IMG/VR virus record: IMGVR_UViG_3300033146_001636
Coordinates: 1-27,273 of that record
Reading direction: 5' to 3' (one strand)
Origin: a virus
DNA: 27,273 bases
Below, one piece after another: positions 3,771-24,985 of the stretch. How positions within the stretch are numbered: the first letter of the stretch is position 1; each line of letters starts with the position of its first letter. The notes beneath the pieces are model-generated. The model saw nothing but the letters and a program-made list of their open reading frames with translations. It was not told the DNA's origin and did not search any database. The translations under genes and the position numbers were made by a program.

Positions 3771-5039
3771 ATGAATACTGAGGAGAAGAAGAAAATATTG
3801 AAAGAAAAGAAAAACAGTATTAAAGAAAAAGCAGTAGAAAGGGTACATAGTGGTGATCATATCCTAGATTGTATTTTTTCTAATGGAAAGGATCATCCAA
3901 AAGGTTATCCATATGGAAAGGTGATTTGGTTATGGGGCCCATCTAAAGCAGGTAAATCAGCATTAGCACTTGAAGCTATATATGCAGCACTAAAGCAGTT
4001 TGGAAAGGATAATGTAGAATATCTATGGTTAGATGTAGAAGAAGCATATTCTTTTGATAGTGAAACTAGAATGGGTTTTTCTATTAATGATGGTAAACAT
4101 ATTACCTATCCTAAAACAGTGGAAGAACTACAGGCTATCATTGAATTATTTGCTAGTGAGAATGATCCAAAAAAACTAAAAATTATGGTATTGGATTCCT
4201 TAGATGCTTTATCTGTTTCAGAAGAGCTTGATAGAAAAGAGCAAAGAACTAAGGAATTTAAAAAGAATGGCTCCATTTCTAATATCAAAACATATGGTAT
4301 GGAAAAAGCAAAGAAGATGGGTGAAGTATTAAGGACTACTACATCCACTATTGCTAAGAATAACATTATTCTTTTTGTTATTTCTCAGGAAAGAGATAAT
4401 GTTAATGCAGGACTATTTGAAAAGAAAACCAAAGTGTCTGGAGGTAAAGCTCCTGGATACTATTCTTCTGTTCAAATGGAATTAAAAGAAGTAGAATCAT
4501 TTGGGGACAAGTATAGACAATGGGGTGCTTGTATTCAAATTCATGCTCAAAAGACTAGAACACCATTTGAAGGTAGAAGATCATTTATCAATACTGACTG
4601 GGAACAAGGATTTGACCCTATTAGTAGTAATATTGATTTCCTTTATGATCTAAAAGATGAATATGGGAAACTTGATCCTAAAAAGATTAATACTTTAAAA
4701 TGGGAAGAGAAATTTAATCTAGCTACACTTGATGGGGATGCAGTATCTAATGATGAAATTAAACAATTCATTAAAGATAATGATTATGAGGATGCAGTCA
4801 AGGAAAAATACAATAGACTAACTACTAAGAACATGCAGGAATTTATTAATGACAATGAGGTAGTGTTAGGGAAGTTTGTTGAGAAGTTTGGTGTTATGAG
4901 TAGAGATGCTTTGATTACTTGGATAGAATCAGATGATACTTTTAAAAGAGAAGATGAACTTATTAGAAGGGCACAGGAAAAGTTCTATTATATTGAAGAG
5001 AAGTCTAAACCAGTAAGAAGAAAAAGGAAGGCATTATGA
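3771..5039 (+). CDS. RecA/UvsX-like recombinase
   Basis: The 422-residue protein carries a Walker A motif GPSKAGKS at residues 56-63, a glutamate-containing LDVEEAY strand end near 88-92 where RecA has its catalytic Glu, and a Walker B strand KIMVLDSLDAL ending at D142. A later VISQERDNV segment corresponds to the conserved Gln-containing strand (motif 3) that senses ATP, and a GGKAPGYYSS segment fits DNA-binding loop 2. It should polymerise on ssDNA and drive strand exchange together with the gp32-like protein upstream. The last 130 residues are charged and unlike bacterial RecA, as is usual for phage relatives. An AAGGA site precedes ATG 3771. Confidence 0.85.
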   Translation: MNTEEKKKILKEKKNSIKEKAVERVHSGDHILDCIFSNGKDHPKGYPYGKVIWLWGPSKAGKSALALEAIYAALKQFGKDNVEYLWLDVEEAYSFDSETRMGFSINDGKHITYPKTVEELQAIIELFASENDPKKLKIMVLDSLDALSVSEELDRKEQRTKEFKKNGSISNIKTYGMEKAKKMGEVLRTTTSTIAKNNIILFVISQERDNVNAGLFEKKTKVSGGKAPGYYSSVQMELKEVESFGDKYRQWGACIQIHAQKTRTPFEGRRSFINTDWEQGFDPISSNIDFLYDLKDEYGKLDPKKINTLKWEEKFNLATLDGDAVSNDEIKQFIKDNDYEDAVKEKYNRLTTKNMQEFINDNEVVLGKFVEKFGVMSRDALITWIESDDTFKREDELIRRAQEKFYYIEEKSKPVRRKRKAL

Positions 5040-12903: not shown

Positions 12904-15290
12904 TACATCAAGGGGCTTTTTCTTCTACTTTTCTACGCCTTTCATAAGCCATTCAATCCGTTTGGCATCACTCAATTGCGACAACCTTTTACCACCAGAA
13001 AACTCGGCAAACTTATTTCTATGAAATTCTCGTCTGTCTTCACTACTCATATTAAAAACATCCACGAATGATTTAAGCTCTTCAATGTCAATATCACCAT
13101 TAAGATCTGCATCATGATAAATCATATAATTGTGATACGTTCTCTCTGTTCCATCTGCATCTTTAAACTTACCACCCATCGCAAGGAAAAATCTATCTGC
13201 ATCAACTGTGGTTAGAATATGAACCATTCCATCGCTGTCTTTATATACCGCAGGAGCCGTTGTTCCATCCTCTGCGATATATTCAGGAACATTTTCAAGA
13301 TCGTACTCAACGCCATTTTGAGTCAAAACATTTCCATCCATACTGAGAGTGTCAGCTGTATCTCGTTTTGTGAATTGTATTTTCATTATGATTTTCCTCC
13401 TATTGTAAAAACATCGGCCGCTCCAGATGCTAGTGCATGTGATGAGTCCCAAAGATAAATTATCGAATTTGTTGTCGTTCTAGTTGCGGTTGTTGTTCTG
13501 AGGGTAAGACCAGCGTCAGAGATACTTGTAACGGATATAATATATATCGATGATGCTAGTATAATCGGCCATGTCAATGTGGATCCGCTACCTCCTACAG
13601 CAAATCCGCTTATCCAGAAATTAGTATCACCTATAGAAGTTTGGATTACCGTTATGCTTCCACTCACATATTCTGCCGTAACCTCATCAATAACAACCCA
13701 TTTAGTCCCATCCCATTCTGCATTAAAAGCAAGCCCATCTGATATAGGAACATCCCCTGTCGCTAATTTCCCTGTAAACGTAACATAAGCTAAACCCGAG
13801 CCATCACACAACACCTTCACTTTCTGTGAAATAAAGGATCCGTCTAGAATTGATATAGAGACATTCCCAGCCGAGGTATCAACAAAGATATTCTCCTCTA
13901 TCTTGACCGCTTTCCATTTCGCCCCTGTTGAAGTTGTTGTGGCACTATACTTGGCAGAACCTGACCCAGTAAAAACTTGACTTGTCCCATCAGGATGTCT
14001 CACTGTAAATGTTCCTGTATGCCCTCCGCCGATCCAAGAGTACTCCCTAGTTTGTAGTACACCTGTTAAATCGGGCAGAACTACCTCTATGTCCTCTGCG
14101 GATATGTCATACTCTCTAGGCATCTGGCTTGTGTCAAAGATCGTTGTGACAAGGTTAGGCTTGGTGATTGTGATTCTGATGTTACAAGATACGGTGTCAA
14201 CAACAGAAGTCAGATTATTTGACGCCCCTATCAGGAAAAATCCGCCAGAGCCGATCTTTAAGATAAAACTGTCTACTGTGGCGTTTTCGATGCCTACCCC
14301 GTAAGAGCCTCCTCCTGTGCTTGTTAGTTGTAAGTCTTTGATTTCTTGATAGTTTGCCAGCCCAGACTTCCAAAATTCTACTTTAATGTTCAAATCTTTT
14401 GCATGAGCTTTTAAGTTATGGCTGATGGTTATGTTTTCTTCTTCCCAAGAAGTTCTGCCAATTTCCTCCCATACCTCCCGCAAGGCACTAATAGTCTCAC
14501 CCGAGGATGTTACATGCTCGATCTTGACGTATTTATAGGCTATGGTCGTTATTGGTCTGGTCTCGTTGGCTATTCTGGGAGTGCCGTTTGTGCCGTCTGT
14601 TACTGGTTTCTTTATGTAGTCCCCCGGAGTCTCCCTTGATCCCACCCCTGCCTTAGCCCCAGCCACTGCACCAGAACCGTCTACAGCAGCCTTTATAACG
14701 AACCCCTGAAAAGCATCCTTTAGCTTAATGCCCTCTTGGGTCAAACGGAATGGGCCAGTAGCTGTTGCTGTAATGTCAATTACGTTTTCATTCGCCATAG
14801 CGTCATGTTCTGTTGCATATAACGTTATTTCATCTGAACCCCTAAACCTGATATAATATATTGTATCTTCATTCAAGCCTGTTGGCAGGGTGCCCTTCAG
14901 AAGTATGGCAACAGCGTCGGATGAACCTGTAAAGATCTTTAACTTTGCAAATCTTGTATAGTCGGTAGATGATAATGTTATACGGTTTGTTGATATATCA
15001 ACATCCGCAGTTGCATCAATCTCCGCAGAATCAGAAATCCCAGAACGGCTATAAGCCCCAGGGATCATAGTAGGAAAAAAGAAGTCTACACCCGGGTCTG
15101 CATCACCTGCATCCAAGTGCTGTTGTCTGTAGATGTCCCCTATAGCATCCCATGCAGCAGGGTAGTTGGCTTTGCTTATGGCATTATCAAAAGATGCAAC
15201 CCATAGACCTTCAGCTCGCCTGTCCTTGTATTTCCCTGATTCAATGGTGTCACCTATTGCCAATATGCTCCCTGAGTTTACAGTTGGTTC
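12540..15290. other. GC-richer mosaic block (fibre C-terminus, EF-hand gene, lipase start)
   Basis: By eye, base composition rises from roughly a third GC on both sides to well over 40 percent here, with GC-ending codons that the flanks avoid. The right edge falls within the fibre gene, near codon 446, and the left edge within the lipase gene. No transposase, integrase or flanking repeat was seen, so recombination between related phages is the simplest explanation. Confidence 0.7.
12925..13386 (-). CDS. EF-hand protein downstream of the tail fibre
   Basis: The 153-residue protein contains one perfect EF-hand loop, DADLNGDIDIEE at residues 92-103, with Asp, Asp, Asn, Gly, Asp and the terminal Glu in canonical calcium positions. 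The N-terminal 70 residues look beta-rich and the last 40 are helical and basic. ATG 13386 follows AGGAGG and overlaps the fibre stop (TAATG). A gene directly after a fibre often encodes its chaperone or a fibre-associated subunit; calcium-dependent folding or attachment is inferred. The whole gene lies in the GC-richer block. Confidence 0.65.
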   Translation of the reverse strand: MKIQFTKRDTADTLSMDGNVLTQNGVEYDLENVPEYIAEDGTTAPAVYKDSDGMVHILTTVDADRFFLAMGGKFKDADGTERTYHNYMIYHDADLNGDIDIEELKSFVDVFNMSSEDRREFHRNKFAEFSGGKRLSQLSDAKRIEWLMKGVEK

Positions 15291-16619
15291 AGGTGGTTGT
15301 ATAAATAAATCAATAGTATTATCGGCAATCGCCGTTCCTATCAACGATCTATACTCAGTAGAGTTCAATCCACCTTTTACTACAATATCACCATCATATC
15401 CTAAATAATATTCACTACCTACTACAAGTCCACTATAAGCATCTAATACACCAATCTTACCTACAGTCATTGTATCACCAGCTACACCACCATACAAGGC
15501 GACTCCACTAACTATACAACTATCAATAGATCTATTGTCTGCTTTATATAATTTCCCATCTGTACCAAATTGTAATGCCATTCCTGTGCTAACATCTTCA
15601 CCTAATATGGCATCTGTACCACTACTGGCTGTGTTTCTTACTATCCTTTTTGATATTTCTTCTAAATAAGTACTTAATGTATCCCATGGATTAGGCATTG
15701 TATCACTTGTAATATATTGCCAACCATAATAAGGTAATACTCTTTCATTATATAAAGTTATATCTAAGGATGATTGTGAGTGTAGTAAAAATCCTCTTTT
15801 AAGATAAGGATATTCACTAGCCCCATCAACATAATCTTCTTGTGCTTGGGCTAATGTAGGGAATACATCACTTTCCCATCCGATGATAATATCAAATAGG
15901 GGGATGTAATCTTTAGAGAATGGTAATCCAGGATTAGTTACTAATATCTCCATAGACTTACTCTTAGCATAATTTGTTGCTTTAGTATAATAAGTTAAAT
16001 TTGTAGGGGAAGAAGCATATGTTAATTCATCAAAGAATATACCCTCTATTTCTGGATACAATATTTTCCAATTATCTATATCAGTATTTACTAAATCTAA
16101 ATCCCTATTTGCATAATCAGTAGATACATATCCTACTACTTTAATATTAGCACTTTGTAATCTTTTAATTCCTACTGCATAGTTTCCATCTACTACTGTA
16201 CCTGGACCATTAGAGGGGTTTATTACTGCAACATATGGAACTGTAGGGAAGTTTCTTTTTAAATCAATTAAAGCATTCCATTCCACATTATTTCTTATAT
16301 CTGCTGGATATATATAAAGAGGAACAATAATACCTTGTGACTGTACATAAGCTGGGGAAGATACAGAAGTAGAACTTCCCCCTGATGATGCTGAACTATC
16401 TGTGATCCATACAGAACCATCATAGAATAAAGACATAACATCCCCATCAAATAATGTAGTACTGGAAGTTCCGTAATTCACTGTTAATGTGTTTGCGGAA
16501 TTTCCTGTGTTTGCTACTTGATAATCCTTCCCCGCTATAGGGATTAATGTGAGAGTTTCATTGGCTAGATTTGTATCTACACCTTTATACTCTTTGTTTG
16601 TTTTAATGAAATTTGACAT
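13386..16619 (-). CDS. Tail fibre with spherulin-4/GH135-like glycosidase domain and collar-like region
   Basis: The 1077-residue protein has an N-terminal beta segment (1-75) and Ser/Gly linker, then a spherulin-4-type TIM barrel (about 95-325) with VPLYIYP, NPSNGPG, GYVSTDY and GIFFDE, where D197-E198 match the catalytic acidic pair of GH135 enzymes such as fungal Sph3, and E249 is a candidate third acid. A small beta domain (330-445) follows. From about residue 446 the DNA becomes GC-richer and the protein shows a tail-collar-like part (NYPAAWDAIGDIYR, FFFPTMIPGAYSRSG, NETRPITTIAYKYVKIE) and several beta modules. It probably binds and cuts a host surface polysaccharide. AAGGAG precedes ATG 16619. 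Confidence 0.75.
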   Translation of the reverse strand: MSNFIKTNKEYKGVDTNLANETLTLIPIAGKDYQVANTGNSANTLTVNYGTSSTTLFDGDVMSLFYDGSVWITDSSASSGGSSTSVSSPAYVQSQGIIVPLYIYPADIRNNVEWNALIDLKRNFPTVPYVAVINPSNGPGTVVDGNYAVGIKRLQSANIKVVGYVSTDYANRDLDLVNTDIDNWKILYPEIEGIFFDELTYASSPTNLTYYTKATNYAKSKSMEILVTNPGLPFSKDYIPLFDIIIGWESDVFPTLAQAQEDYVDGASEYPYLKRGFLLHSQSSLDITLYNERVLPYYGWQYITSDTMPNPWDTLSTYLEEISKRIVRNTASSGTDAILGEDVSTGMALQFGTDGKLYKADNRSIDSCIVSGVALYGGVAGDTMTVGKIGVLDAYSGLVVGSEYYLGYDGDIVVKGGLNSTEYRSLIGTAIADNTIDLFIQPPEPTVNSGSILAIGDTIESGKYKDRRAEGLWVASFDNAISKANYPAAWDAIGDIYRQQHLDAGDADPGVDFFFPTMIPGAYSRSGISDSAEIDATADVDISTNRITLSSTDYTRFAKLKIFTGSSDAVAILLKGTLPTGLNEDTIYYIRFRGSDEITLYATEHDAMANENVIDITATATGPFRLTQEGIKLKDAFQGFVIKAAVDGSGAVAGAKAGVGSRETPGDYIKKPVTDGTNGTPRIANETRPITTIAYKYVKIEHVTSSGETISALREVWEEIGRTSWEEENITISHNLKAHAKDLNIKVEFWKSGLANYQEIKDLQLTSTGGGSYGVGIENATVDSFILKIGSGGFFLIGASNNLTSVVDTVSCNIRITITKPNLVTTIFDTSQMPREYDISAEDIEVVLPDLTGVLQTREYSWIGGGHTGTFTVRHPDGTSQVFTGSGSAKYSATTTSTGAKWKAVKIEENIFVDTSAGNVSISILDGSFISQKVKVLCDGSGLAYVTFTGKLATGDVPISDGLAFNAEWDGTKWVVIDEVTAEYVSGSITVIQTSIGDTNFWISGFAVGGSGSTLTWPIILASSIYIISVTSISDAGLTLRTTTATRTTTNSIIYLWDSSHALASGAADVFTIGGKS

Positions 16620-16636: not shown

Positions 16637-16665
16637 TTGACTTTAGTTTTCATATGAATTATACT
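16637..16665 (+). promoter_or_regulatory. Sigma-70-like match on the plus strand, antisense to tail genes
   Basis: TTGACT (16637-16642), 17 bases, and TATACT (16660-16665) stand in the gap between the fibre and J genes, pointing against late transcription. Such a match could arise by chance in AT-rich DNA; if active, it would make RNA antisense to the J gene. Confidence 0.25.
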
Positions 16666-19277
16666 CTTCCCCAGGTTGCAACATAAGTAGATAGTGTGAT
16701 ATTTATACGAAAATATTTAATATTGGTATCATCATGTGCTTGCCATGAAACATAGCTTGGTTGATATTTGAACATCCCTAATTTTCTAACCCCATCTGTA
16801 TACTCAACATAACCCAGTACAGTATGATATAAAGGAAGAACTGAGGATAAGGCAATGAATAAGTTATGTTCAGTATAATTCCCACCAGGAGAACCACCTT
16901 CTTTCATTATTACCCCCTGTGCTGCATTGGCAGATAAACCATAAGTAGAAGTTGCTCCATCAGAATATCTTAAAGTACTATACCCATAATATGATATTTT
17001 AGAAATTATATCCGAAAAATAAATATGTTGTATATTTATTGAAGTAGCTTCAACATGACCATTATCATCAACATTAAATCCATTTACAGATCCAATTGAT
17101 ATTGTTCCCCCAATAATATCACTACCTGTTATAGTAACACCATCTAATCCTTCTACTTGTATATCACCTGCTATTTTCAAAGCATGTTCTGGAGAAACCC
17201 TATTAGGATCAAAATCTAATACAATATTCCCATCTTTATCTCTAAACTTCTGTGTACCACTATTAAGATCAATCTCTGTGATGAAGTTCCCATTATCATC
17301 TCTATCTTTACTATTTATCGCATCTGCACTTAATAACTCTGCACTTATTGTTCCTGGTACTATTACTTTATTTGCATTAAGATTTATTCTTGTACCACTA
17401 ACTGTAATAATTGCATCTGTTACTGTTGTTAAAGCTGGTTTAGTCATATACAAAAAGTTATTACCAACCATTTTCACTCTAGTATCATTATCTAATCCAT
17501 TAGCAATCAATACATCATTCTTTACTAAGGAATCTACTGTTTCTATACTAAGATTCAATAAAGCATCACTACCGTGTGTTAAGTCTGTAGTAAATTGATA
17601 TGCTGTTTCTACTGCATCAATTGATCCATTTTGAATAGATGTTGTTGACGGAGCATAGAATAATACACTATCATAATAAGGTGCTGAGAATACAATATCA
17701 CCTAAAGGATTCACCATAAATCCTGTTGCTGTACCTTGCCTTGGTTCCCCTTTATCTGATGTATCTATTGACGAAAGTTCCTTTTTATAGATAGTTAGAT
17801 CTAAAGAGTTCAATAAATAAACTGCACTATCTGTACTGTGTATTTCATGTACTACACTTCCATCATAAAACAATGTCTCTGTGAATACAGTATCAAAATA
17901 CATTACATTATAGACAAAATTATCCATCCCAATATAATAAAACTCATTACTTGTAATTATTGTTAAGTCATATATCTCCTTATCAAAATATAATGTCCCA
18001 TCACTAATGGTATTATAGAGGATCTTATATACCTTTTGATCATTCCCATGGATATAATAAATATCTCCTTTTTCTTGATCTATATCAAAATCATAAATAG
18101 GTACATTCGCTATCCTTACACCATTAGAAGTATCCTCACTTGATTTCCTCCATAGTCTACCATCATCATCTTGATTTACATAGAAGATCTCATTATTGAA
18201 TTTAATGTTTCTTCCTGTAGATACACTATTTAAAGGTATACCCACTTCATTCCCTGCTTTTGTTTTACGATATAGTTTATTCCCATCATCATAATTTACA
18301 TAGAGGATATTGTAGTCATCAAATGAACTAGGATAGAAACCCATTATTGTTGTTATTTGTGTAGAATCTGGTATTTGTCCTGTTAATCTATAATCAATTT
18401 GATCTGTGATCTGTATTACTTTATTTGCTTCATTTACCTTATCTGTATTACTTTGCGGTAATTCACCCACTGATATAGATCCACCACCACCTACACTAAT
18501 CTTAGAATCATATACTGGAACTACACCTTCATCTGCTAAATAGATATTTTCATCATAAGCATAGCAAGTTAATTTTGCTCCCATATCTGAATCTGGTTCT
18601 ATTTTAGCAATTACTAAATCTGCTGTTTCTATTCCCCTTTCACCAAACATAACAAGATCATCTTCATGTACATCTGCTATAATGGAGGATTCAAATACTA
18701 CTGTACGTGAATCCACTCCTGAGTTCAATACATTTACTGTGAAGGACGTTCCATCTTGTAATCTTACTGTGACGCCATATTCTTTTCCTGTTTCAAACTG
18801 AATGATTTCATCTAGTACTAAACCACTAAGTTCTCCTGATGATTCAATGATGTTTAATACTCTACCATAGGATAATCCAAATAAAGGCACATCATGTGCT
18901 AGTTGTATTCGATCCCCCCTTAAACACATAATTGATTCAATGTCTGTAGAGAAAGAATAAGTCTCTGGGCGTAACCTAGTTACTGCATGCATATATTTTC
19001 CAAGTTTCCATACTTGTTCTGGATGCATTGCACCAAACATAGGAGCATCTTGTACTATATCTGTTTGTCTTATTTCCCCTTCATAATTATCAAAATATAC
19101 TATTCTTTCTGCTGGTGTGTATCCAGAATCTATATCAATAAATGATAATTTTAATGCTGTAGGAGGTTCTAAGAAAGATTTACTTCCACTAAAATCCCAT
19201 GTATTTTTTGGTGTGAAATATTGAACTACAACACTGTCATAAGTATCAATCTTAATAGTATATCTACCATCAATCAT
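16659..19277 (-). CDS. Tail tip protein J-like, C-terminal part (separate reading frame)
   Basis: The 872-residue product begins inside the J family: residues 2-60 (IDGRYTIKID, QYFTPKNTWDFS, PPTALKLSFID, ERIVYFDNY) and 118-140 (RGDRIQLAHDVPLFGLSYGRV) match the conserved receptor-binding tail-tip core. Residues about 305-545 are a repeated YYxxxDxxVYK-type beta-propeller-like region, and the rest is a fibre-like beta domain. ATG 19277 overlaps the upstream TGA by eight bases. In this frame the codons just before the ATG still read CGTGRAAWS, a conserved J stretch, so the true protein was once longer at the N-terminus. It should act at the tail tip in host recognition. Confidence 0.8.
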   Translation of the reverse strand: MIDGRYTIKIDTYDSVVVQYFTPKNTWDFSGSKSFLEPPTALKLSFIDIDSGYTPAERIVYFDNYEGEIRQTDIVQDAPMFGAMHPEQVWKLGKYMHAVTRLRPETYSFSTDIESIMCLRGDRIQLAHDVPLFGLSYGRVLNIIESSGELSGLVLDEIIQFETGKEYGVTVRLQDGTSFTVNVLNSGVDSRTVVFESSIIADVHEDDLVMFGERGIETADLVIAKIEPDSDMGAKLTCYAYDENIYLADEGVVPVYDSKISVGGGGSISVGELPQSNTDKVNEANKVIQITDQIDYRLTGQIPDSTQITTIMGFYPSSFDDYNILYVNYDDGNKLYRKTKAGNEVGIPLNSVSTGRNIKFNNEIFYVNQDDDGRLWRKSSEDTSNGVRIANVPIYDFDIDQEKGDIYYIHGNDQKVYKILYNTISDGTLYFDKEIYDLTIITSNEFYYIGMDNFVYNVMYFDTVFTETLFYDGSVVHEIHSTDSAVYLLNSLDLTIYKKELSSIDTSDKGEPRQGTATGFMVNPLGDIVFSAPYYDSVLFYAPSTTSIQNGSIDAVETAYQFTTDLTHGSDALLNLSIETVDSLVKNDVLIANGLDNDTRVKMVGNNFLYMTKPALTTVTDAIITVSGTRINLNANKVIVPGTISAELLSADAINSKDRDDNGNFITEIDLNSGTQKFRDKDGNIVLDFDPNRVSPEHALKIAGDIQVEGLDGVTITGSDIIGGTISIGSVNGFNVDDNGHVEATSINIQHIYFSDIISKISYYGYSTLRYSDGATSTYGLSANAAQGVIMKEGGSPGGNYTEHNLFIALSSVLPLYHTVLGYVEYTDGVRKLGMFKYQPSYVSWQAHDDTNIKYFRINITLSTYVATWGRV

Positions 19278-20826
19278 TGACCATGCTGCCCTTCCTGTTC
19301 CGCATATTTGTATCCGTTAATGCTTTTAAGAAAGCTGATGCTGGATTTGATGTTAATCCTTTTCCCCATGATGATGGTCCAGTACCAGATCCTGTATAAT
19401 ATCTTGAATAAGCTGTAGCTTCATAGTTAAAGTTATCAATTGTTCCTTTTAATTGTTCTGTTGCTTGTACCTGTAATGATATTACATTCAATTCTGCTTT
19501 TACTTCTGGTATGATTGGTGCTACATCAACATTACCAGCATTATCAAATACTCCTGTATAAGATGTAAACTTTTCAAGATAAACATCATTAACCCAATTA
19601 TAACCAATCCATATGTCACCAGCGATGTCTCTAAACTCAGCATAAGTTTGAGATCTTTTTATTATTTTAACTGTGTATTGTCTATCTGGACAGTAATCAT
19701 GAGAAGAGGGTGTTTTGTTATCTAATATATAATACCCTCTCCATCGTACAGTATGAGAACTCATAGCTGTAAAATTGACTCCTTTTATAGATGGGTTATC
19801 AAAATCCTCCCAATTCTGACTAAATAATGGCAGTATCTTATACGCAGAATCAGGTTCATTTGCTTTCTTATACATAAAAACCATTGTACAGTACTGAGTT
19901 GCCATAGCACCATTATTCATATATTTAATTAACCCCTTAGGGAAAATAAGACCTATATCAAATTGTGTTGTATTTTTACTTGTTGTTCTTACTATACCAT
20001 TATCATAGGAATTATCCCAATAAGGGATTTCCATCCCAACTGAATCTTCTGATACTCTTCTAGTAAAAAACACATTATCACTTGATGATTCCCGAACATA
20101 TGGTCCTTGATGTTTAAATGAATTTAAAGGGGATTCCCCTAATTTATATGTATCCTCATGTATATACATTTCTTTATATCCAGAGCAGTAAGAACCATAG
20201 AAATATTGGATTCCATACTTGTCTAAATTTAAATCTGGATATACTGTTGATGTAGATCCTGTATATGGTTTAGATGCAAAGAAAGGCATAATCAAATGTC
20301 TACCAAATAATACAGGAATTTTACCATTCCTATTATCACTATTTTTAGATCCGCTAATGGATGCTGTTTGTGTAGACTTATTATCAGTAAAGGAATCTGT
20401 TTCTGTTTCTAATTCATAGTTGTATAATAGAACACCTACGCCAATAGTCATTAAACCAGAGACAGCTAAAGAAATACCAGCATAGAGAGCTAATGCTCCC
20501 CATCCTACTGGTCCAGCTACTATTGCTAATATAATACCTAGTGCAGCTATACCACCACCAATTCCTTTTGCAATATTACCTTCATCTGCTAATACTCCTC
20601 CACCATCTCCCTGTGGAACACATTTGAAATAAACATTATCTGCTTTAGGAAGCCTAGTAAAATCTGTTACTACAGTATCACCATCAATTATAATGTAATC
20701 TTTAATATCAAATTCAAGTTCTAATTCTTCATATATTTTTCTAAAAGATTGTTTTTCTACATTGAGGATTTCTCTATCATTCTTTAATGGATGCTTATAT
20801 ATAATAGCTCTAATTTCTGATTTCAT
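19270..20826 (-). CDS. Tail tip protein, I/J-like N-terminal part (prematurely ended)
   Basis: The 518-residue product begins with a small ubiquitin-like domain (about 1-75), then a glycine-rich hydrophobic hairpin (about 85-137), as in lambda gpI/gpJ-type tail-tip proteins, followed by NGKIPVLFGRHLIMPFFA and a long beta domain ending in LKGTIDNFNY and TSNPASAFLKALTDTN. This matches the first part of J. The normal continuation (a Trp/Cys-containing segment of roughly 45-50 residues) is missing, and the frame ends ten residues later at TGA 19272-19270. ATG 20826 overlaps the peptidase gene by 17 bases, with GAGGGG before it. Confidence 0.75.
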   Translation of the reverse strand: MKSEIRAIIYKHPLKNDREILNVEKQSFRKIYEELELEFDIKDYIIIDGDTVVTDFTRLPKADNVYFKCVPQGDGGGVLADEGNIAKGIGGGIAALGIILAIVAGPVGWGALALYAGISLAVSGLMTIGVGVLLYNYELETETDSFTDNKSTQTASISGSKNSDNRNGKIPVLFGRHLIMPFFASKPYTGSTSTVYPDLNLDKYGIQYFYGSYCSGYKEMYIHEDTYKLGESPLNSFKHQGPYVRESSSDNVFFTRRVSEDSVGMEIPYWDNSYDNGIVRTTSKNTTQFDIGLIFPKGLIKYMNNGAMATQYCTMVFMYKKANEPDSAYKILPLFSQNWEDFDNPSIKGVNFTAMSSHTVRWRGYYILDNKTPSSHDYCPDRQYTVKIIKRSQTYAEFRDIAGDIWIGYNWVNDVYLEKFTSYTGVFDNAGNVDVAPIIPEVKAELNVISLQVQATEQLKGTIDNFNYEATAYSRYYTGSGTGPSSWGKGLTSNPASAFLKALTDTNMRNRKGSMVND

Positions 20827-21698: not shown

Positions 21699-24149
21699 TT
21701 ATTTGTAAAAATATCCAGTTAGAGTTATGTTAGTTACAATTACATTATCACTTAATGTATCCTCTGCTGTATTTCCATCTCTATATAATGAGATTAAAAC
21801 TGCTGACCCATCTGCTTTCAAAGTATTAACACCTACTAATAATTGCATAGTCTGTCTGACCCGATTACTTGGCGTACTTATTGTTTGCACTACTTTAAAT
21901 GTTTCTGGAACTGCTGTACCATCATAAACAAAGCCATCTTCTATTTGATAAACATCTACACCAAAATTAATATCACCTGTTCCTGTCCCTTTAATATAGT
22001 AAGAAACTGATAATACAAGTGGTATTGATGTATCTAATCCCTCATCAATACCTTGAACAATACCAAACCCATCTTTAACATTATATTTAAATTCATTATC
22101 TCTATATTTTGCTTTAAAGTCTGTACCATAAGCTACATACTCATCATTTGGATCATTATAGTAATTAGGAATTGTACCACCTATACCCGATTTTAAAGTC
22201 TTTACAAACCTTGCTGAACCAAAATATTCTGATGTTCCATCTGCATTTACTTCCATTCTAGCTGTATGTAATTTTAACTGCTGTACAATTGGATCAGTAA
22301 CTATATCTGTTTCAATTCTAAATCTTGCCCAATACTTTGTTAAAGGTATCCCATTAATATTTAATGTTACCTGATCCCAATCTGGTACTGTACCTAATAG
22401 TGGATTAAATCCAAATCTCCATTGTTCATTTTCTACTGTCCCTATTTCATTAGCAAATGATACTAAATCACCATTAGCATCTGTAGCCATAAAAGGGGCT
22501 GTAATCCACGCTGGTGTGTTATCTTTTAAATACTCTGCTGTAATGTTATTAGGATCAACACTCCCCAATGCTGCAAATAAAGTTTTAGTTCCACCATACT
22601 TATGATCTGAACCAACTAAAATATATTTCCCTGCTGTTACACCACCAAATAATCCTATTGAACTTATTGTATCTCGTTGAAGTGTGTTTTTTACATCTAT
22701 TGCATTTACTATTGTTAATCCTGATGTATTTGCTATTTCACAATGATAAGCAAAAGGAACTGGATAAGAATCCCCTTGCCCTAATACTGTTTCATTTCCC
22801 TTCCCTGGTTCCCCTACTGAGAATTGACCCCCTCTTAATCTAACACCTACATCTGCACCATTATCATCCAAAAAATCTAAAGAAATATTTCCATTTAAAC
22901 TTCTTATAGTTTTTACTGGAAGAGAAGATGTATTAACATCATCTGCTGGACTATATGATACTATTTCCCATGATGAAGATAAAGCATAAGATTCACCTAA
23001 AAAATCAATACCATAAACATTAGCATTGGTGGGTAATACTGGATTGGTAATATCACTAATAGAAGTTGAATAAAATCCTTCTACTTCCCCACCAGGGAAA
23101 TAAGTAGGAATAGCATTTGTAATAGTCTTATAGTCTGTGGATACACTAGCCCCTTTTACAGACCATGTGATATTAAATATAGTATTAGATCCTATAAAAT
23201 CCCCACTATCTGTACTATCTACTGGAATTTCATAATAAGTAGTATGATCAATCAATGTACCTGTTACTCTATAGATTGTATACTTTCCTATATTATTTTC
23301 ATCTTCTAATGTAATTATATCTCCAATTTTTAAAGAACTTAAATCTGCTCCTCTATCTAAACCATCTCCATATTCCTTTTTATTAATGAATATAGTAGAA
23401 GATCCTTGAAGCGAAACAACACCATCAGAAGGATTACTTACTGCACATTTTACTTCCCATTGACCACAATAATTTACATCATTTTCTACATTATGTAAAA
23501 TTACACTAATTCTATATTGATCACCAGGGACAGTAATAACACTAGATAAAAGATCCTCCATTAAAACATCTTTCCATCCAATATCAACAACATTAAAAAC
23601 TACATGTGATCCAACTAATACTGGATTGATTTCATCTGTCATATTCCATAATTGTACTGTATATTGATTATTTGCACTACCATCTGTCCATATTCTACAA
23701 CCTCTTATTTTACTAATATGTGCTGTAGTAAACTTGTATCCATAAATTAAATCACCAACTACACTTACTGTAGACCATGTTGGTTCTGGCTGAACATGCC
23801 AATCTAAATCATTATTGGGAACTGGTGCTGGATAATCTGTTGTATCACCTATTGCAATTGTTGTCCATTCCCCTATCCTAGTTATTGTGTTTCGTTTATA
23901 TGTTTGTCCATCTACCCAAGGATAGATCCATTTTGTTTTTGTATCTAATTCTAATGAGTTATTTAATACATCCAATTCATTACTAGAAATTCTACTAGGT
24001 AAATCCCCTTGGGCATATGTTTTTAAGTTATTTAAAGAGGATTTCTTTTCTCTTCTTATACCACCAGACAAAGGTTGGTATACTTCAAATTCATTACCAT
24101 CAGATAACGCATCACTATCCTCATATTCTGATATTTTTATATCTGCCAT
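21699..24149 (-). CDS. Fibre-like tail protein with DUF4082-like domain (816 aa)
   Basis: The N-terminus MADIKISEYEDSDALSDGNE is typical of phage fibre and decoration proteins. Residues about 105-245 (YGYKFTTAHISKIRGCRIW, VQLWNMTDE, IGWKDVLM, YRISVILH) fit the DUF4082 beta-sandwich fold found in surface and carbohydrate-binding proteins. The remainder is beta-rich with many Asn, Thr and Gly and no enzyme motif. It lies between the M-like and L-like genes, where lambda has none, so it may be a side fibre or baseplate-type subunit. AGGAGCT precedes ATG 24149. Role inferred from composition and location. Confidence 0.65.
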   Translation of the reverse strand: MADIKISEYEDSDALSDGNEFEVYQPLSGGIRREKKSSLNNLKTYAQGDLPSRISSNELDVLNNSLELDTKTKWIYPWVDGQTYKRNTITRIGEWTTIAIGDTTDYPAPVPNNDLDWHVQPEPTWSTVSVVGDLIYGYKFTTAHISKIRGCRIWTDGSANNQYTVQLWNMTDEINPVLVGSHVVFNVVDIGWKDVLMEDLLSSVITVPGDQYRISVILHNVENDVNYCGQWEVKCAVSNPSDGVVSLQGSSTIFINKKEYGDGLDRGADLSSLKIGDIITLEDENNIGKYTIYRVTGTLIDHTTYYEIPVDSTDSGDFIGSNTIFNITWSVKGASVSTDYKTITNAIPTYFPGGEVEGFYSTSISDITNPVLPTNANVYGIDFLGESYALSSSWEIVSYSPADDVNTSSLPVKTIRSLNGNISLDFLDDNGADVGVRLRGGQFSVGEPGKGNETVLGQGDSYPVPFAYHCEIANTSGLTIVNAIDVKNTLQRDTISSIGLFGGVTAGKYILVGSDHKYGGTKTLFAALGSVDPNNITAEYLKDNTPAWITAPFMATDANGDLVSFANEIGTVENEQWRFGFNPLLGTVPDWDQVTLNINGIPLTKYWARFRIETDIVTDPIVQQLKLHTARMEVNADGTSEYFGSARFVKTLKSGIGGTIPNYYNDPNDEYVAYGTDFKAKYRDNEFKYNVKDGFGIVQGIDEGLDTSIPLVLSVSYYIKGTGTGDINFGVDVYQIEDGFVYDGTAVPETFKVVQTISTPSNRVRQTMQLLVGVNTLKADGSAVLISLYRDGNTAEDTLSDNVIVTNITLTGYFYK

Positions 24150-24151
24150 TA

Positions 24152-24985
24152 TTAGCTCCTACTAGTTATTTTTGTATCATCATTTGATGTTATCTTTGTA
24201 CTGTTGTCTGATGTCCGTTTTACTTCTGTTATTGGTAGATCCTTAACAAACTTTGGAATCTCTTCTACTGATACTGATAAAGTATAATATAAAGTATCAC
24301 TATCATAAGATATGGAATAAGAAGAACCGAATCTTACTTTAATTATACTTGGTGTATAAAGAGGAGCTTCCAAATCAAAAGGCATAATACCCCATCCCTG
24401 ATCTGCATAGAATTGTTCAAAGATCACTAATTGTTCCCTTGTTAAAACATAAGACATATTATGATTAATTGTTGTTGCTGTAAACCTTCTTCTTGATTCA
24501 AAATTAGGACTATTGTAAGATACTAAAGCATTTTGTTCTGATTGACTATAAGCATTATGTAAAGGTAATGATGGTAAATCTAAAGGCCAACTATCTTTAA
24601 CTGTTCCTGGTGTAATATATTCTAATGCCTGTACAGTAAATGATACTAATAACTGATCTGTCCCAGCCCAAGGTGTTACATTAAATGGTGCTTCCTCCCC
24701 TATAAATCTTACCTCTAAAGGATCTTGTATTCTTAGGGGATCAGGAAGATTAAATGACATTTCACCATAGCCTAACTCATTATGAAAGAATCTTTGAAAC
24801 GCATCATATTCAAGTAAAGTCATCCCATACTCTACTGTATACTTTCTATATCTAGATGTTGTTTTTGGTCGTCTCTTATCATATCCTGTTGACATTACTT
24901 GTGAGAAAGTATTGCCTACAATCTCACAAGAAGCACCAAAATTGGCATTTTGTGGAAGAGTTAATGGCCAATTTATACTTGTCAT
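24152..24985 (-). CDS. Minor tail protein with duplicated domain, gpM-like position
   Basis: The 277-residue protein is built of two related halves: residues about 4-125 start NWPLTLPQ and about 130-250 start SWPLDLPSLP. Each continues through an R/K-R-P/S-R-F/Y stretch, a helix with LxxxE/FxxFxFF/YxxxxGxGxMxF, and a strand KVRF/EVRF. Single-domain versions follow the tape measure gene in many siphoviruses and form part of the tail-tip hub. The last 25 residues, KITSNDDTKITS-like, are low complexity. The start lies one base after the tape measure stop, with AGGGGG upstream. Confidence 0.7.
   Translation of the reverse strand: MTSINWPLTLPQNANFGASCEIVGNTFSQVMSTGYDKRRPKTTSRYRKYTVEYGMTLLEYDAFQRFFHNELGYGEMSFNLPDPLRIQDPLEVRFIGEEAPFNVTPWAGTDQLLVSFTVQALEYITPGTVKDSWPLDLPSLPLHNAYSQSEQNALVSYNSPNFESRRRFTATTINHNMSYVLTREQLVIFEQFYADQGWGIMPFDLEAPLYTPSIIKVRFGSSYSISYDSDTLYYTLSVSVEEIPKFVKDLPITEVKRTSDNSTKITSNDDTKITSRS

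Follow-up and report, generated by a model that had tools for sequence, protein, structure and literature searches.

In this virus record, the gene for a lambda-J-type tail-tip hub protein is divided between two overlapping open reading frames, and a segment of the hub core that all of its region-spanning relatives retain is missing from between them. A damaged gene, or a defect of sequencing or assembly, is the most likely explanation, rather than a new two-part tail tip.

Tail Module and Layout of the Two Reading Frames

The window analysed here is the whole virus record, 27,273 bases long; the record has no further contigs. Gene order and family matches place a lambda-type tail module on the minus strand, in the right part of the window. 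The two reading frames, ORF A and ORF B, stand in the position of a J-type hub gene, after genes of the tape measure, M, L, and K types, as judged from gene order and from synteny with the loci L149, L150, and L164. The features are as follows, in the direction of transcription.

truncated by the window's right end, minus strand: tape measure protein
24152-24985, minus strand: M-position protein, 277 aa, assigned from the tail-module gene order
21699-24149, minus strand: extra gene, 816 aa, between the M-like and L-like tail genes
minus strand: DUF1833 protein in the L position, followed by the NlpC/P60 protein
minus strand: NlpC/P60 protein in the K position, followed by ORF A and ORF B
19270..20826, minus strand: ORF A, N-terminal part of a J-type hub protein, 518 aa, collinear with J relatives
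19273..19316, minus strand: two-frame overlap, 44 stop-free bases, the frames differing by +1
19303..19307, minus strand: deletion junction, ATATG, which gives (N)-M in frame A and I-(C) in frame B
19277, minus strand: start of ORF B, ATG
19272-19270, minus strand: stop of ORF A, TGA
16659..19277, minus strand: ORF B, remainder of the hub plus the part of J that follows it, 872 aa counted from the ATG

Comparison of their sequences confirms that a single lambda-J-type tail-tip hub protein is divided between ORF A and ORF B. ORF B carries the family matches (phrog_31, E 1.9e-28; PF13550, Phage-tail_3, 24.1 bits for a cut-off of 23), while ORF A, which alone matches no family, is collinear with the J proteins of L015, L149, and L150. 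On the J protein of L015, ORF A aligns with residues 6-472 and ORF B with residues 515-1191, leaving 42 residues absent. Similarly, on the hub profile ORF A ends at position 57 and ORF B begins at position 100, so that positions 58-99 are absent from the window and the hub core is neither complete nor in one reading frame. Within the single J ORF of described Rhizobium, Bradyrhizobium, Curvibacter, Rhodobacter, Rhodovulum, and Nitrincola phages, A and B together align end to end, and the gap falls between the NPASAF and GRA motifs.

Frame B is open back to position 19316 and reads RIQICGTGRAAWS before MIDGRYTIKID. Both ORFs are otherwise free of stops, and neither half has further lesions, which suggests that the deletion event was recent or technical.

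The Intact Form in Relatives

J relatives were gathered from IMG/VR, bacterial genomes, and phage records. In a first set, all 146 records that span the region have both flanks in one frame, and profile positions 55 and 102 lie 47 residues apart in 119 of them (minimum 45, maximum 127). The full count comprises this first set and later loci, with repeated contigs removed. Here both flanks are kept in one uninterrupted frame by 177 of 177 region-spanning relatives, and positions 54 and 103 are 49 residues apart in 135 and never fewer than 47. The two-frame arrangement is not a product of chance, because every one of these relatives keeps a single frame.

None of the relatives is shortened at this place, though some are longer by an in-frame insertion of about 75 residues. 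Such an insertion, within the hub segment that is absent from the window, was seen in L018, L032, L051, L057, L067, L081, and L103, and several of these carriers have in common the motif ..DKGGGLVGIPCTGHG...

The nearest kin are L150 (IMGVR_UViG_3300005264_000440), with 54% identity over 367 residues of the hub part of ORF B and 39% to ORF A, and L149 (IMGVR_UViG_3300038682_000082), with 46-50% identity to the hub part of ORF B and 40% to ORF A. Both have the same tail-gene order as the window and a collinear J; unlike the window, both keep the segment and a single frame through the hub. In L150, the shared genes are the L- and K-like ones upstream and, downstream, the beginning of the same fibre gene, followed further on by two of the opposite-strand genes. 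The missing segment is also retained in frame in L015. Measured between the N of the NPA motif and the I that precedes the conserved C, the distance is 192 bases in L150, 186 in L149, 180 in L015, and 40 in the window. The net loss is thus 152, 146, and 140 bases, respectively; each value is 2 mod 3, which accounts for the change of frame between A and B. The missing part amounts to 44-46 residues by the profile and to 47-51 codons by the three nearest kin.

The original prediction of a J gene split by an internal deletion and a frame change, with frames offset by +1 that overlap at the stop of ORF A and the start of ORF B, is therefore strongly supported, and its estimate of some 45-50 missing residues was about right. 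The alignment to intact J proteins that it proposed returned A and B as collinear halves. It also stated that relatives with an intact single frame, together with the missing segment in the reads, would mark an artefact. Such relatives do exist, but the nearest, at about 39-54% identity in the products of A and B, are not the same phage. Clade-specific scans gave no kin nearer than L149 and L150 and none with the same split, and an exact 33-mer search of IMG/VR gave no sibling contig; near-identical records may be left out of either search.

The J gene of L150 is itself split, at another site (4480-4550): frame 1 runs out at about 4548, and frame 3 carries the remainder from about 4509. About 20-25 residues are missing there relative to ORF B of the window, in a repeat-like region downstream of the hub. 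J lesions, whether real or technical, thus recur in contigs of this group.

Structure of the Lost Segment

In the hub model predicted for L015 (mean pLDDT 71 overall and about 90 around the missing stretch), the lost part corresponds to residues 468-509, which include helix 476-489, strand 495-497, and most of helix 503-513. According to this model, the break is inside the secondary structure of the hub core. By fold, the model matches the tail-tip proteins of Sf11, lambda, T1, and T5, with modest TM-scores of about 0.3-0.5 for what is a multi-domain model. In the profile alignment, lambda gpJ retains a counterpart of the segment at roughly residues 285-336. The hub domains of gpJ form the closed tip in lambda and rotate at its opening (PMC11101478). 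The GRA motif is near-invariant (of 147 profile matches, 138 have the G, 134 the R, and 136 the A), and the product of ORF B, when started at its ATG, lacks it as well.

The lambda tip attachment protein gpJ (8iyk, 8xcg, 9e7m) and the tail-tip proteins of T1 and Sf11 (9l9p, 9occ) give profile and fold matches over the hub domains. However, all three run as a single chain through the hub core, unlike the pair in the window. Hub domains shared between two proteins, as in A and B, are found in lambda gpL with gpJ and in RcGTA gp13 with gp15, whose dividing point is within the HDII-insertion and separates HDI from the rest, at a domain boundary and with nothing missing (PMC10721106). In contrast, the window has its split deeper within the J hub and has lost a segment: the break falls in a helix-strand-helix piece, and at least 42 residues are absent.

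The Deletion Junction

Homology of ORF A runs through T-D-T-N-M (codons ending at 19303), where M stands against I in L150, I in L149, and V in L015; out-of-frame residues and then the stop follow. Homology of ORF B begins at I-C (19307). Provided that the two readings are both ancestral, the deletion would have been flanked at each end by a direct repeat of five bases or more, and the fit of ATATG to both flanks is consistent with a microhomology deletion or slippage. The exact breakpoint may lie some bases beyond ATATG. The resemblance of ORF A's out-of-frame tail, MRNRK, to NVNRK of L015 gives the breakpoint a margin of some bases; it is probably a coincidence, because G-T-G-R-A in frame B takes up those bases.

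No credible match to a profile of the missing segment was found elsewhere in the window (best E 0.23). A contig joined from two phages was also considered and is ruled out, as L150 shares genes to either side of the junction and the nearest kin of ORF A are also those of ORF B.

Origin of the Split

Three readings were left by the original prediction: a tip that works in two parts, damage to the gene, or a deletion introduced by assembly. The comparisons above disfavour the first, whereas gene damage and an artefact of assembly or amplification both stand. That A and B are coupled and assemble a working tip without the missing segment is improbable in our judgement. ORF B could be made, given the overlapping stop and start and an SD-like AGGAAGG 11 bases before its ATG, whose pairing is about as strong as for several other genes of the window, and the two ORFs are intact apart from the break. 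However, this form is found in none of the 177 relatives, the product of ORF B would begin after the GRA motif, and the break is within the hub core, whereas known two-protein hubs divide between domains and lose nothing (PMC10721106). Moreover, both the SD-like stretch and the ATG belong to the coding sequence of the ancestral protein; because this ATG encodes an internal residue, no designed gene boundary is visible. We give slightly less credence still to a working hub of two overlapping, translationally coupled proteins lacking a helix-strand-helix piece that is kept in all other J-type hubs examined. A +1 ribosomal frameshift that fuses A and B into one shortened J would suit the offset of the frames and their 44-base stop-free overlap, but it is very unlikely: inspection revealed no recognised +1 slip site before the TGA, the fusion would still be short of at least 42 conserved hub residues, and no relative shows recoding here.

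A deletion that exists only in the data, through a chimeric amplification read or an assembly step that joined the two sides while the J of the phage itself is intact, is a serious contender, to which we assign about one chance in three or a little above. The virus record is metagenomic, the lesion is private to it and affects an essential gene, neither half is otherwise damaged, and the frame break in the J of L150 indicates that such lesions occur in these contigs. Against this, the implied repeat is shorter than the usual assembly word lengths, which makes a simple collapse of the assembly graph unlikely and calls for a chimeric read, and none of the 177 relatives, mostly metagenomic contigs too, is broken in this region. 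A genuine deletion in the phage DNA, giving a tail-defective variant with a broken J, has in our view an about even chance of being correct and is the leading reading. Tail-defective genomes should not dominate a replicating population, and a deletion at the consensus level may be technical; this expectation favours an artefact or a minority variant. No lysogeny gene by which a defective phage might survive as a prophage was recognised in the window, which is a fragment.

If the J gene was indeed damaged, we infer the following course. One block of about 140-150 bp would have dropped out of the interior of a single, intact ancestral J-type hub gene, probably through slippage, or the joining of ends, at short direct repeats with at least ATATG in common. 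The loss would strip the helix-strand-helix piece from the hub core and shift the frame, so that translation of ORF A would halt about 33 bases past the junction and ORF B could be started only from a chance internal ATG. The products of A and B should then form no hub, and the sequence would be that of a tail-defective variant.

Implications for Annotation

Whether the gene is damaged or the data are at fault, neither ORF A nor ORF B should be annotated as a full-length tail-tip protein, nor should the contig be cited as an example of a two-part hub. The near-fixed spacing across the hub segment offers a simple rule to spot broken J genes in metagenomic contigs. Should the arrangement prove both genuine and functional, the hub could do without a core segment that every relative keeps, which specialists would find surprising.

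Other Features of the Window

No RNA elements or tRNAs were found in the window. The M-position protein (24152-24985) consists of two similar halves, corresponding to two phrog_384 stretches, and its counterpart in L149 (1313-2113) appears as two open frames in one phase with a single stop codon between them. The 816-aa gene (21699-24149) has no family match, and L149 has no room for it at that place; it looks like an inserted gene, perhaps a fibre. The 264-aa protein encoded at 982-1776 is made of repeated units (LEAVKQN..ALxxVRNQTE) and matches several virus families of unknown function. Downstream of J, the large fibre-like protein at 13386-16619 contains a Spherulin4 domain (E 4.4e-42), which is glycosidase-like and could be a depolymerase.
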